Of a DNA stretch of 38,992 bases, positions 1,114 to 19,261 are shown piece by piece. A model generated the notes under the pieces. The model was given only the letters and a program-made list of their open reading frames with translations, did not search any database and was not told the origin of the DNA. The first letter of the stretch is position 1. Each line of letters opens with the position of its first letter. The translations under genes were made by a program, and so were the position numbers. Source of the DNA: Marinifilum sp. (GTDB lineage: Bacteria; UBA9089; CG2-30-40-21); contig DYDG01000014.1 of NCBI GenBank assembly GCA_020717845.1, forward strand, positions 1 through 38,992. The letters are read 5' to 3'.

Positions 1114-1497
1114 ATGCCGAGGTACGAAGAATTAGGGGTCTGGCAGTTAGCGAACAGACTGGTTATGGAAGTGTGCCGTATCGTTAACCGTTACCCGAGA
1201 GAGGTTGCCTACAATGACCTTGCAATTCAAATGAAGGGTTCATCTATGGGTGTGGCTATGAATATCGCTGAGGGACATTCTCAGCAAACCCTTCATGAAT
1301 ATAGGCATTTTCTTGAAGCAGCCATGAACTCTTTGAGGGATACTACCTTCTTTTTGAAGGTAAGTTATCAGAATCAGCTTGTAAATGAGGTTACCTATAA
1401 CTTTCTCTCTAAAGAGTATGAACGGGTGAGATGTCTGGTGCTGTCTATTCTTAAATGGATTGAAAGCGAGACAACCAGCAGTGTAGCGGCAGCATAA
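1114..1497 (+). CDS. four-helix-bundle protein (S23/23S rRNA intervening-sequence family)
   Basis: The 127-residue product matches the four-helix-bundle (S23, TIGR02436-type) family. Visible features are the N-terminal LGVWQLANRLVMEVCRIV helix, the central SSMGVAMNIAEGHS segment (canonical form: S..S...NIAEG) and the later LRDTTFFLKVS segment. The family is best known from ORFs inside intervening sequences of 23S rRNA genes, but free-standing copies are common in environmental genomes and their function is unknown. Start ATG 1114 follows GGGAGGT. It sits between fliP and fliQ, an order not expected for the export-gate operon, with about 195 bp of non-coding DNA upstream and a perfect 11-bp inverted repeat downstream (1520-1554). 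I infer insertion of a small selfish or RNA-associated element. A role in flagella is not supported. Confidence 0.85.
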   Translation: MPRYEELGVWQLANRLVMEVCRIVNRYPREVAYNDLAIQMKGSSMGVAMNIAEGHSQQTLHEYRHFLEAAMNSLRDTTFFLKVSYQNQLVNEVTYNFLSKEYERVRCLVLSILKWIESETTSSVAAA

Positions 1498-6514: not shown

Positions 6515-7759
6515 ATGATGAGATATAAGACTTATGAGGCTGAAACATTGCAGCAAGCCATCCTCAAGATGACCATTGACCTGGGAAAGGATGCCCTGCT
6601 GATTGATCAACGCCAGGTTCGGCATGGCGGGTTATTTGGCTTGTTTGGAAAAAAAATGGTTGAGGTGACGGCTGCGCTGCCCATGAAACCAGTGATTAAA
6701 CAGGCACCAGCATCCCTGCCTTCATCTCCATCAGCTGGAATGACCAGAGCAGTAAACACTCCCTTGCCAAAACCAGGTATATCAGCCCGGCCTAATGCAG
6801 CAATTGTTGCCCCTCCAGCAAACAGGGTAGAGATTAAGCAGAGGGAAAACTTGCCAATAAGGGAAATTTCCCCTCTGTCAGAGATAGATGCCGTTAATCT
6901 GCTCCAGAAGGAGATGCGAGAGATAAAGACAAAGATGGATACCATGATCGGTGTAAACAGTAGTAAAATGAATGTGTATCCAGGAAAGTCAGGGAATCTT
7001 TATATGAAGCTTACTCAAAATGAGTTAAGTGAGGAATTAGCAGAACGGCTGATTAAACGAATAATTACCGAGTCACCAGGCGGATTAGTAGATGATGGGG
7101 ACTTTATAGAAATGAGGGCAAGAACCCATCTGGCAGGATTGATTCGAACCGCAGGGCCGATTCAGCTTGTATCAGGTGTGCCCAGGGTAGTCATCCTGAT
7201 TGGAACAACCGGCGTGGGCAAGACCACTACCATAGCCAAGCTGGCTGCTGATTTTGCCTTTGACAAAAACAAAAAGGTGGTCTTGATTACCGTAGATACA
7301 TACAGAATAGCTGCGGTAGAACAGCTGCGGGCTTATGCAGATATCCTGAGCATTCCTCTGGAGGTAGCCTTTTCTCAGCAAGAGTTTAGAGAAGCCATGA
7401 TAGCTTATGCTAATTATGACCTTATCCTTATTGATACAGCTGGCCGCTCACAAAAGAATAGCCTTCAAATGGCTGAGTTAAAGAGCTTTATCGATGCTGC
7501 AGGGTATAAAATGGATGTCCATCTATTGCTTAGTGCTACAACCAAATATCGAGAAATGATAGATATTATAGAAAATTTCAAGAAAGTAAACTTTCACAAG
7601 ATAATCTTTACCAAACTTGATGAAACCGTTGGTATGGGGACAATTATTAATGTCTTGAGCCAGATTCCTCAAGGCATATCTTACATAACTACAGGACAGA
7701 ATGTGCCTGAGGATATTGAGGTAGCTGATGCCAATAAACTGGCAAAGATGATTATTTAA
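6515..7759 (+). CDS. flhF: flagellar SRP-like GTPase FlhF
   Basis: FlhF is an SRP-family GTPase that controls position and number of flagella. The 414-residue product has the N-terminal B domain beginning KTYEAETLQQAILKM, a Pro/Ala-rich linker (about 55-115), an N helical domain and a C-terminal G domain. G-domain motifs are visible: P-loop GTTGVGKTT from residue 230, DTYRIAAVEQL, DTAGRS and TKLDET. Two consecutive ATGs (6515, 6518) follow GGAGGA at 6500-6505. The next gene, flhG, encodes its usual regulator. A perfect 13-bp inverted repeat separates the two genes. Confidence 0.95.
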   Translation: MMRYKTYEAETLQQAILKMTIDLGKDALLIDQRQVRHGGLFGLFGKKMVEVTAALPMKPVIKQAPASLPSSPSAGMTRAVNTPLPKPGISARPNAAIVAPPANRVEIKQRENLPIREISPLSEIDAVNLLQKEMREIKTKMDTMIGVNSSKMNVYPGKSGNLYMKLTQNELSEELAERLIKRIITESPGGLVDDGDFIEMRARTHLAGLIRTAGPIQLVSGVPRVVILIGTTGVGKTTTIAKLAADFAFDKNKKVVLITVDTYRIAAVEQLRAYADILSIPLEVAFSQQEFREAMIAYANYDLILIDTAGRSQKNSLQMAELKSFIDAAGYKMDVHLLLSATTKYREMIDIIENFKKVNFHKIIFTKLDETVGMGTIINVLSQIPQGISYITTGQNVPEDIEVADANKLAKMII

Positions 7760-7829: not shown

Positions 7830-8711
7830 ATGGCTGATCAAGCAGAGAGACTTAGAGAATTAGTTCGACAAAAACAGCAGGTAGTGACAGAGGATAATTC
7901 TAAGTGTAAGATAATAACCGTAACCAGCGGCAAGGGCGGGGTAGGAAAAACCAATATAGCCTCAAATCTGGCCATTTCCTTTTCCATGTTAGGGCAAAGG
8001 GTGCTGATAATGGATGCAGACCTGGGGCTTTCTAACGTAAATATTATTACAGGACTCATCCCACCCCCAAAATATAACCTCTCTCATGTAATTTCAGGGG
8101 AAAAAGACATTCTTGAGGTAATTGCCCATGGACCATGCGGGATAAAGGTAATCACTGGTGCAGTTGGAGTAACTAAGGTAGCCAATATGGGGACAAAAAA
8201 AAGGACTGACTTTATTGAAAGTTTAGATTCCTTGCTGCCATTGTTTGACCTGATATTTATTGATACATCTGCAGGATTGTCTGAGAATGTGCTGTCCTTT
8301 GTGCTGTCTGCAGATGAGGTTATTCTGGTGACCACTCCTGAGCCAACAGCCATTACCGATGCCTATGGCATGATCAAAGCCATAGCTGCTAAAAATGAGG
8401 CTATTAAGGTAGGGTTGGTGGTCAATCGTATTCAGAATATTATTGAAGGGAAAAAGGTTTCAGATAAAATAGTAAATATTGCCGAACAGTTCCTTGGGCT
8501 AAAGATAGAAAGGCTGGGATATATCATGGAGGATGCTCTGGTCCGAAAAGCGGTGAGTGAACAGGCTCCATTCTTTGTTACTTACCCAAATTGTAAAGCA
8601 GCAAGCTGCATTTCTCATATCAGAAACAAATTGGCAGAGATTCCAGAAGAAAATTATAGTGATAATGAAAAAGGCTTTTTTAGCCGGCTATTTCAGAGAT
8701 TTCAATCGTAG
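7830..8711 (+). CDS. flhG: MinD-like ATPase FlhG (FleN/YlxH)
   Basis: FlhG is a MinD/ParA-family ATPase that limits flagellar number and stimulates the FlhF GTPase. The 293-residue product has the deviant Walker A motif SGKGGVGKT at residues 33-41, the following DADLGLSN motif and the IDTSAG Walker B region. The N-terminus MADQAERLRELV matches the DQAxxLR activator helix described for FlhG-FlhF pairs. The C-terminus has a short charged and hydrophobic tail (FFSRLFQRF) that could serve as a MinD-type membrane-targeting helix. ATG 7830 follows AAGGGGTG. The gene directly follows flhF. Confidence 0.94.
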   Translation: MADQAERLRELVRQKQQVVTEDNSKCKIITVTSGKGGVGKTNIASNLAISFSMLGQRVLIMDADLGLSNVNIITGLIPPPKYNLSHVISGEKDILEVIAHGPCGIKVITGAVGVTKVANMGTKKRTDFIESLDSLLPLFDLIFIDTSAGLSENVLSFVLSADEVILVTTPEPTAITDAYGMIKAIAAKNEAIKVGLVVNRIQNIIEGKKVSDKIVNIAEQFLGLKIERLGYIMEDALVRKAVSEQAPFFVTYPNCKAASCISHIRNKLAEIPEENYSDNEKGFFSRLFQRFQS

Positions 8712-8733
8712 GGCAACACCCTTGCGATTTTTC

Positions 8734-8761
8734 TTGCGAATTACGAAAAATGTGGTATAAT
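8734..8761 (+). promoter_or_regulatory. extended -10 sigma-70-type promoter before the fliA group
   Basis: TTGCGA at 8734-8739 is followed after 16 nt by a perfect TATAAT at 8756-8761, and the TGG just before it makes an extended -10 element. It would drive the two-TM gene, fliA and possibly apbE, allowing sigma-28 to be made separately from the export-gate operon. Confidence 0.65.
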
Positions 8762-8850: not shown

Positions 8851-9306
8851 ATGCGGATTCTTATTATCTCAAGCCTGATCATTTCATTCTTTGCCGCTCT
8901 TTTTATGGGCGGGTTTACCTGTATGAAGTTTGCTGGGAGCATACAGGGTCCTGAGGTATTATTAGTTATCCTTGCACGGGCAATACTTACTTTTGGCACT
9001 TTTTTTTGCCTGTCGCTGATGCTTGGAGTAGTTTTAAAAACATATGTGCCTCAGTTAGCGTATCTTTTTATTGATAAGGAAGTAGATTATACTATGCCCA
9101 TGATTGTTCCAGGCGAGGCTAAAGAAGAAGAAGAATGGCCAAGCTTAAAGGTAGAAATAGAACCATTCGAGAAGAAATTCATGCTGCCATCTACGGCTCA
9201 GGAAGAGCCCTTTATTTATGGTATTGAACATGCTGAACAGATTGCCTTAGCCTTTCGCACATGGATGTCAGATGATGAGGATAATGAGGCACAACCTGAG
9301 ACTTAA
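8851..9306 (+). CDS. two-TM flagellar-locus protein with FliF-like C-terminal motif
   Basis: I do not recognise a named family. The 151-residue product has two predicted membrane helices (about 4-26 and 38-63) and a mainly acidic cytoplasmic or periplasmic tail. Residues 132-144 (ALAFRTWMSDDED) resemble the FliG-binding C-terminal helix of the MS-ring protein FliF; from memory, enterobacterial FliF ends in a very similar RQWMSND sequence. The gene has its own promoter (8734-8761), lies between flhG and fliA, and is 31 bp from fliA, so a flagellar role is likely. ATG 8851 follows AAGGAC. The FliG-binding idea is inference from a short motif only. Confidence 0.7.
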   Translation: MRILIISSLIISFFAALFMGGFTCMKFAGSIQGPEVLLVILARAILTFGTFFCLSLMLGVVLKTYVPQLAYLFIDKEVDYTMPMIVPGEAKEEEEWPSLKVEIEPFEKKFMLPSTAQEEPFIYGIEHAEQIALAFRTWMSDDEDNEAQPET

Positions 9307-9337: not shown

Positions 9338-10114
9338 ATGCCATTGCAGAAAACTGAAGAAGAATTATGGCAAGAATATAAACAAACAAAAAACCCAGGT
9401 ATTCGTGAAGAGCTGATACTAATGTATGCTTCGATAGTTAAATATATTGCTGGACGGGTTGCAATTAATATGCCTCCTAACGTTGATTTTGAGGATTTGC
9501 TCTCTTATGGGATTCTTGGCTTGATTGATGCCATTGAAAAGTTTGATGCCAAGCAGGGAATAAAATTTAAAACATATGCCTCAGCCAGAATCAGAGGAGC
9601 AATAATTGATGAAATCAGACATCTTGACTGGGTCCCAAGAACCTTGCGACAAAAAGCAAAGATGTTGCAAAATGCTTATGCCTCTCTGGAGTATAAACTT
9701 GAACGGCCAGCAACCGATACGGAAGTAGCAGAAGCAATGCATATTTCTATAGATGATCTTTATAAACTTATCCAGGAGGTAAATACCACGTCTATTGTCT
9801 CGTTAGAGGATGTATTATGCTCAAAGGATGACAGCGATGAAGTAACTATTATGGATATGGTTGAAAATCCTCAGGAACAAGGTCCAGATGTATTGGCAGA
9901 AAACGAGGATATAAAAGATATCCTTATTTGTGCCCTTAATAAGCTTCCAGAAAGAGAAAGAGAGATTATTGCCTTATATTATTATGACGAGTTAACCCTA
10001 AAAGAAATAGGAAAGGCTTTGAATGTTACTGAATCCAGAATCTCTCAGCTGCATAGCCAGGCAATTCTTCGCCTGCGGGGAAATTTAACCATGATGAAAG
10101 GGACTTTGTTGTAG
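9338..10114 (+). CDS. fliA: flagellar sigma factor sigma-28 (FliA/WhiG family)
   Basis: FliA directs RNA polymerase to late flagellar promoters. The 258-residue product has region 2 (FEDLLSYGILGLIDAIEKFD, then FKTYASARIRGAIIDEIR), region 3 (VPRTLRQKAK and TDTEVAEAM) and region 4 ending in the helix-turn-helix LTLKEIGKALNVTESRISQLHSQAILRLR. ATG 9338 follows AAGGAG. A near-perfect target promoter lies in the same window at 18886-18913, upstream of an flgM-like gene, supporting a complete FliA-FlgM circuit. The neighbours flhF and flhG match the usual arrangement. Confidence 0.95.
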   Translation: MPLQKTEEELWQEYKQTKNPGIREELILMYASIVKYIAGRVAINMPPNVDFEDLLSYGILGLIDAIEKFDAKQGIKFKTYASARIRGAIIDEIRHLDWVPRTLRQKAKMLQNAYASLEYKLERPATDTEVAEAMHISIDDLYKLIQEVNTTSIVSLEDVLCSKDDSDEVTIMDMVENPQEQGPDVLAENEDIKDILICALNKLPEREREIIALYYYDELTLKEIGKALNVTESRISQLHSQAILRLRGNLTMMKGTLL

Positions 10115-18913: not shown

Positions 18914-18949
18914 AAGAGATGAGGGAAAAATTTTAAGGAGATGATGAAG

Positions 18950-19261
18950 ATGCTGATTAATCCTGTTACCGGTACCCCAGAAATACAAAAGATGGATAAC
19001 AAAAATCTTGCAGTAAGGCAATTAGAAAGCAAGGTATTTCCAAAAGATAGGATTGAAATATCTTCTCACGCAAAAGAGGCACACCAGCTTCGTCTTTATG
19101 CTGGAGAAATGGCAAAAAAGATAGCAAACACTACCCCAGATAGGATAGAATTAGTAGCTCAGGCAGCCATCAAATTGAAGACCGGAGCTTACAATCAGCC
19201 AGATGTTACTGAAGAGATTGCCAAAAGACTTTCCAAAGTGTTAATGGGGATGGAGATTTAA
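18950..19261 (+). CDS. flgM: FlgM-like anti-sigma-28 factor
   Basis: FlgM binds FliA and holds late flagellar genes off until it is exported through the hook-basal body. The product is about 103 residues, typical in length, with an unstructured N-terminus. The C-terminal half matches the family pattern: DRIEISSHAKE, then RIELVAQAAIKLKTGAYNQP and VTEEIAKRLSKVL, as in FlgM's sigma-binding helices. The start was placed at ATG 18950 because AAGGAG (18935-18940) is 9 nt upstream; ATG 18941 and 18944 lie too close to it. A consensus sigma-28 promoter just upstream strongly supports the assignment. It is the last gene of the plus-strand block. Confidence 0.85.
   Translation: MLINPVTGTPEIQKMDNKNLAVRQLESKVFPKDRIEISSHAKEAHQLRLYAGEMAKKIANTTPDRIELVAQAAIKLKTGAYNQPDVTEEIAKRLSKVLMGMEI

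Follow-up and report, generated by a model that had tools for sequence, protein, structure and literature searches.

The small gene between flhG and fliA in this DNA raises two questions: what protein it encodes, and what the helix predicted at the end of that protein may bind. The window (the whole stretch of DNA that was analysed, 38,992 nucleotides) contains at positions 8851-9306 of the forward strand a complete ORF with an ATG start, encoding 151 amino acids. An earlier note had described it as an unassigned membrane protein with two transmembrane helices and, at residues 132-144, a motif like the FliG-binding helix of FliF. Both the ORF and the motif (ALAFRTWMSDDED) are present in the translation as described, and the gene is indeed flanked by flhG and fliA. 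The features of the locus are listed below.

6515-7759, forward strand: flhF, neighbour upstream of flhG (TIGR03499 over cut-off)
7830-8711, forward strand: flhG, neighbour (MinD-like ATPase match and position)
8704-8729, forward strand: possible terminator-like hairpin after flhG (pattern only)
8734-8761, forward strand: possible sigma-70-like promoter site TTGCGA-16-TATAAT (pattern, not clearly above chance)
8851-9306, forward strand: flgV (Type-1), 151 amino acids (ORF, family anatomy and synteny)
8854-8940, forward strand: predicted membrane helix 1, residues 2-30 (AlphaFold2, low confidence)
8950-9081, forward strand: predicted membrane helix 2 with cytoplasmic extension, residues 34-77, E35 at its start and R43 inside (AlphaFold2, conservation)
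9082-9222, forward strand: polar linker, residues 78-124, fast-evolving past a Y80-P83-P87 motif (pLDDT mostly below 50, comparison with L082)
9226-9276, forward strand: FliF-like tail, a predicted helix, residues 126-142, EHAEQIALAFRTWMSDD (matrix, profile and conservation comparisons)
9338-10114, forward strand: fliA (sigma-28), neighbour (TIGR02479 over cut-off)

A Type-1 FlgV of Desantisbacteria

No Pfam or NCBIfam model fits the 151-aa protein, and its Pfam matches are below cut-off. Neither the protein nor its family could be tied to a named family by Pfam, NCBIfam and PDB searches, and all the listed matches looked unrelated. The YscJ/FliF periplasmic domains have no Pfam match in the protein; the sole FliF match of the window's genome is on contig C181. 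An AlphaFold2 model built from an alignment of three sequences has low confidence (mean pLDDT 56.7) and predicts two long N-terminal helices (residues 2-30 and 34-77), disorder over 78-124 and a C-terminal helix (125-145). The two transmembrane helices are supported by hydrophobic stretches in the sequence and by the two N-terminal helices of this low-confidence model.

The gene is almost certainly a Type-1 flgV of Candidatus Desantisbacteria, because its anatomy (two N-terminal helices, an arginine, a linker and a C-terminal peptide) and its position next to flhG and fliA match those of the FlgV family. The published FlgV work names Desantisbacteria, the phylum of this genome, among the carriers, with members recovered at e < 1e-5 (PMC11607428). 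R43, the arginine of helix 2, is invariant in all ten rows of alignment A1, and the two f5 rows added in alignment A2 both have lysine at this position (the homologue groups f1 to f6 are described in the next section). E35, the acidic residue at the start of helix 2, is invariant in the seven rows of f1 and f2 and absent from f3, f5 and f6. Type-1 FlgVs also have a conserved polar residue towards the close of helix 2; T47 is conserved in f1 and f2, but lies in the middle of the helix. The C-terminal peptide is IALAFRTWM with R136, and such a tail is found in eight of the 12 homologues.

The proposal of a new flagellar-number factor was therefore dropped: position and anatomy match a family already published with Desantisbacteria among its members. 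In Helicobacter pylori flgV is also found between flhG and fliA, its protein forms a ring near the MS/C-ring junction, and its loss lowers the flagellar number with no misplaced flagella (PMC10655999). A role in flagellar placement together with FlhF and FlhG, which the earlier note had suggested, is not favoured because the H. pylori authors saw no such misplacement. FlgV of Campylobacter jejuni co-precipitates FliF (PMC10655999), and a Borrelia burgdorferi flgV mutant makes fewer and shorter filaments with an unchanged number of basal bodies (PMC11607428).

The gene had also been called promoter-equipped. A TTGCGA-16-TATAAT site and a hairpin do precede it, but promoter-like sites number 4 here against 2.0 (sd 1.5) in shuffled sequence, which is not clearly over chance. 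Two other ORFs of the window are of separate interest. At 1114-1497 (forward strand) a 23S_rRNA_IVP four-helix protein (Pfam E 7.3e-18) is encoded amid genes for flagellar export; the ORFs on either side of it were read as fliP (85-918) and fliQ (1556-1873). At 18941-19261 (forward strand) a 106-aa ORF has a weak, below-cut-off match to FlgM (Pfam E 0.019) and is perhaps an anti-sigma-28 factor.

Homologues within the phylum

Of the phylum's 19 genomes, 12 have a homologue that was found by searching with the protein or its alignment. These form the groups f1 (G000, which is the genome of the window FlgV, G001 and G003), f2 (G004-G007), f3 (G008 and G013), f5 (G010 and G015) and f6 (G011). The same searches of the 19 genomes found no homologue in G002, G009, G012, G014, G016, G017 and G018. 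The region is interrupted in G002, where fliA begins 255 bases from a contig end and flhG was not found. Across 386 genomes, the 19 of the phylum included, the alignment search gave no clear member outside the phylum.

Synteny in relatives, proposed earlier as a check, holds for part of the family. Besides the window's own genome, G001, G003, G006 and G007 have the gene between flhG and fliA, but the f5 and f6 copies are located elsewhere. On two short contigs only one neighbour is present (flhG without fliA in G004, fliA without flhG in G005), and in f3 an extra ORF of about 353-362 aa separates the gene from fliA. The f6 homologue adjoins an ORF read from its sequence as pdxJ-like. Both f5 homologues (L055:1489-1797 in G010 and L056:838-1158 in G015) lie outside the flagellar cluster after an iscS-like ORF, and G015 also has an iscU-like ORF nearby, these gene names again being readings of the sequences. 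The published account puts every FlgV in a flagellar superoperon (PMC11607428), and the f5 locations disagree with it.

A FliF-like tail is present in all of f1 (EHAEQIALAFRTWMSDD in the window FlgV, EQAEQIALALRTWMSDD in G001, EQAEQIALALRTWIVND in G003), in the four f2 genomes (consensus AEALAM(V/T/S)I(R/K)TM(M/L)A(E/Q)E) and in G011 (QKPEEVAKAVRTLLQE). Homologues that lack the motif while keeping the rest of the protein had been named beforehand as an outcome that would count against the motif. This was found in part: the four f3 and f5 homologues have no tail, and the other eight have it.

The tail is a conserved island beyond a fast-evolving linker. Compared with L082, linker residues 98-125 are identical in 6 of 29 columns only, and the tail that follows is identical at 14 of 19 positions. 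Its conservation is about that of the membrane part, unlike the linker. A second short motif, DYxxPxxxP, follows helix 2 (residues 79-87) in f1 and f2 and partly in f5.

Resemblance of the tail to the C-terminus of FliF

FliF of the window's genome ends in AIQHPDAVANLFRTWLEKDTEEAEVVAT, and the window FlgV tail is identical to it at seven of 17 aligned residues. FliF tails were collected from 60 genomes, 18 of the phylum and 42 outside it, and a 17-column matrix was built solely from the 42 FliFs of other phyla. The comparison set consisted of 2837 C-termini of other ORFs of at least 80 codons, non-gene ORFs included. Two of these exceed 27 bits and are FliF-tail paralogues from f3 (mini-FliFs, described below), which leaves 2835 unrelated ORFs. 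Residues 126-142 of the window FlgV score 20.4 bits, against 16.2 bits for the best of the 2835, of which three reach 12.0. None of 2000 shuffles of the last 40 residues reaches 20.4 bits. On the same matrix the eight tailed FlgVs score 12.3-22.3 bits and the 18 FliFs of the phylum 15.8-34.8 bits.

In an HMM built from the 60 FliF tails together, the window FlgV scores 7.9 bits and the best unrelated ORF 5.3; the FlgV tails of G005 and G006 score as background in this model. A profile of seven FlgV tails from f1, f2 and f6 (with a single entry for the identical tails of G004 and G007) was searched blindly against 177,635 PDB sequences. The top match was FliF (12dr_A, residues 549-565 of 569), in register and with an E-value of 0.062; the runner-up was an unrelated protein with 0.13. 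The FliF-tail alignment searched against the PDB found two FliF sequences under E 0.01, and 5TDY was not among the 12 matches listed. When whole genome G000 was searched with the FliF-tail profile at E <= 10, FliF was listed and the window FlgV was not, so the match of this sequence alone falls short of genome-wide significance. In G001 FlgV came second (E 1.81). The support for a FliF-like tail comes from the homologues and from position, not from the single-sequence match; together with the matrix statistics and the PDB search, the homologues uphold the likeness that the earlier note had seen.

The likeness is limited in extent. Matrix and profile matches span only the last 17 or so residues, and the first FliF-tail helix, before the hinge, has no counterpart; in 5TDY two helices with a hinge extend over 36 residues (PMC6079021). 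The FliF tryptophan, present in 54 of 60 FliFs, is kept by just three tailed FlgVs, those of f1. An origin as a recent copy from the genome's own FliF tail was considered and dropped, as FlgV tails are not specially close to own-genome FliF: in 13 genomes the own FliF ranked 2, 12, 24, 43, 18, 14, 43, 6, 35, 24, 11, 30 and 56 among the 60.

The family itself is known, and the window gene is a member. Within the FlgV passages covered, from open-licence literature, no mention was found of a likeness between the C-terminal peptide and the FliG-binding helix of FliF.

Two-helix proteins next to flhG in other phyla

flhG was found in 118 of the 386 genomes (E <= 1e-40), and 100 of the 111 listed flhG regions from outside the phylum were examined. 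By a plain hydropathy rule, two-helix ORFs up to 3.5 kb downstream of flhG were picked by position and not by motif. This gave 40 ORFs, 37 of them within 700 bases of flhG, some of which may not be FlgV. Four of the 40 score at least 13.9 bits on the 42-FliF matrix (G321 22.0, G373 14.4, G086 13.9 and G036 13.9), versus one of the 2835 unrelated ORFs; the other 36 are below 12 bits. The contrast in helix-2 arginine is weak: 24 of 37 synteny-found proteins have it, and so do 37 of 85 further two-helix ORFs. The two-helix ORF of G373 (L128) is directly upstream of fliA, and its VDYVLPEDLP resembles the DYxxPxxxP motif of the window FlgV family.

Mini-FliF and FliG-N proteins in related genomes

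In both f3 genomes, where FlgV is tail-less, a mini-FliF ORF directly follows fliF (L255:6181-6492 in G008, L256:4746-5156 in G013). The predicted proteins combine a single hydrophobic helix with a tail strongly of the FliF type, which scores 27.2 and 27.6 bits on the 42-FliF matrix. In a two-sequence comparison the 103-aa mini-FliF of G008 is identical to FliF of its own genome at 14 of 35 residues (E 1e-9). The fliG-bearing contig of G008 opens with a 129-aa ORF (L278:144-530, contig G008:C104) that contains only a FliG-N domain (E 1.4e-27) and lies directly before full fliG; the mini-FliF is on another G008 contig. This lone FliG-N protein is possibly the partner of mini-FliF. A FliG-N search in G013 did not find one, so the lone domain rests on one genome.

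Group f4 (G016, G009 and G014), in which FlgV was not detected, has a frame of 61-75 codons between fliF and fliG in all three genomes (G016:C127:5307-5441, G009:C56:3424-3519 and G014:C41:7839-7937). Their likeness is to the beginning of FliG-N, over a third to a half of the domain (E 2e-5 to 0.004).

G011 possesses a tailed FlgV homologue (L257:5244-5606) and a lone FlhA cytoplasmic part (L302:202-1206, E 1.5e-94), while genome searches detected no FliF, FliG-N, FlhG or FliA in it. That G011 merely lost its flagellar contigs was considered; the FlhA piece, however, is a separate 334-aa ORF, not cut by a contig end, and an unrelated long ORF lies upstream of it.

Possible docking of the tail on FliG-N

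The C-terminal tail through which FliF grips FliG folds together with FliG-N. The FliF-FliG co-evolution signal lies in the last twenty residues of FliF (PMC6079021). The FlgV tail matches about these residues, and docking on FliG-N is therefore the simplest reading of it. FlgV would be a ring subunit, sited by published work at the MS/C-ring joint (PMC11607428), whose tail helix docks on FliG-N; the docked tails might act as extra membrane tethers for the C ring, or might modulate FliG capture. As the first FliF-tail helix is missing, binding might be weaker or transient. That the tail binds FliG-N, judged from sequence, is a possibility falling just short of even, and the whole explanation, a Type-1 FlgV ring subunit with such a tail, is held equally tentatively, the balance tipping slightly against it.

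Counted in favour of docking were the family features (synteny, R43, E35 and the naming of Desantisbacteria), the likeness itself (20.4 bits, eight tailed homologues of 12, the top PDB match and four of 40 ORFs outside the phylum), the conservation of the tail (14/19) over the linker (6/29), and the published FliF co-evolution, FliF co-precipitation and MS/C-ring position. Counted against it were the four homologues and 36 outside two-helix ORFs without a tail, the absence of the window FlgV from the genome-wide list, the PDB match at an E-value of 0.062 with an unrelated protein next at 0.13, the background scores of G005 and G006, a tryptophan confined to f1, the failure to track the own FliF, the match to only the second FliF helix, and G011, which has a tailed homologue with no detected FliF, FliG-N, FlhG or FliA. 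The f3 mini-FliF and lone FliG-N fit the docking view.

The main alternative is that the tail binds a partner other than FliG (FlhF, FlhG, sigma-28, an export part or FliF itself) and that the likeness to FliF is one between two short amphipathic helices of similar composition. This is distinctly possible, while remaining well short of probable. The neighbours of the gene are flhF, flhG and fliA, not fliG; the FliF match is weak per single sequence, does not track the own FliF and lacks the tryptophan in most FlgVs; and in the H. pylori model FlgV and FliF touch through the membrane helices (PMC10655999). A composition effect should recur in shuffles and at other ORF ends and did not, and the top PDB match of the tail profile is a FliF C-terminus, in register.

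Among the top unrelated scorers on the FliF matrix are FlhG C-termini from f5 and f7 (L078 in G010, L079 in G015 and L080 in G012, with 16.2, 12.0 and 11.2 bits). Proteins of the FlhG/MinD type end in a membrane-targeting helix, and the FlgV tail could likewise be an amphipathic helix folded back on the membrane. This is improbable: the protein already has two membrane helices, and the tail has few basic residues and is followed by the acidic stretch SDDEDNE, unlike typical membrane-targeting helices. Just as unlikely is a tail that binds nothing in particular, or something outside the flagellum, in a protein that works by way of its membrane helices (sensing the membrane or acting on FliF) or serves as an RNA chaperone on the side. 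Tail-less homologues exist and G011 keeps the protein with no detected FliF or FliG-N, the B. burgdorferi authors proposed an intramembrane sensor role (PMC11607428), and Borrelia FlgV was reported in a 2026 paper to act as an RNA chaperone in vitro (PMC13285594). Against this, conservation is about equal in the tail and the membrane part, a level that the linker does not share.

FlgV is widespread, and its authors name possible interacting partners as a future direction (PMC11607428). The FliF-like tail suggests FliG-N as such a partner, together with a binding mode and specific residues; docking, if true, would bear on the way in which motors with wide C rings connect them to the MS ring. 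A broader proposal makes FlgV another membrane anchor of FliG besides FliF. Given the FliF-type helix at the end of tailed FlgVs in several phyla, two kinds of membrane protein, FliF and FlgV, would build the MS/C-ring joint of these motors, and in f3 the function would have passed to a split-off mini-FliF working with a lone FliG-N protein. If true, this would explain the exact site of the FlgV ring at the joint and the tethering of C rings larger than the FliF ring. As a whole it is doubtful.

Comparison with known systems

With the C-terminal tail of FliF the window FlgV shares its last 17 or so residues, at the C-terminus of a membrane protein: a start of small and acidic residues, alanine at the fourth to fifth turn, (R/K)T, a bulky residue and an acidic end. 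It differs in that FliF domains are absent, that of the paired tail helices it has just the second, and that the tryptophan is confined to f1.

FipA (DUF2802) is an FlhF-binding polar membrane protein with one membrane helix and a DUF2802 domain. The 151-aa protein has no DUF2802 match in Pfam. Both are small membrane proteins tied to flagellar assembly (for the name FipA see PMC11236974).

Type-2 FlgV of H. pylori and C. jejuni is of the same size class, with two membrane helices and the same flhG/fliA position (PMC10655999), but has neither the arginine in helix 2 nor the acidic residue at its start (PMC11607428), both of which the window protein possesses. From Type-1 FlgV (the B. burgdorferi BB0268 family) no distinguishing feature was found in the window protein. 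The two have in common the paired N-terminal membrane helices with arginine and acidic start in helix 2, the polar linker, a short C-terminal peptide with hydrophobic and basic residues, and a gene between flhG and the sigma-28 module, in a phylum named by the description of the type (PMC11607428).
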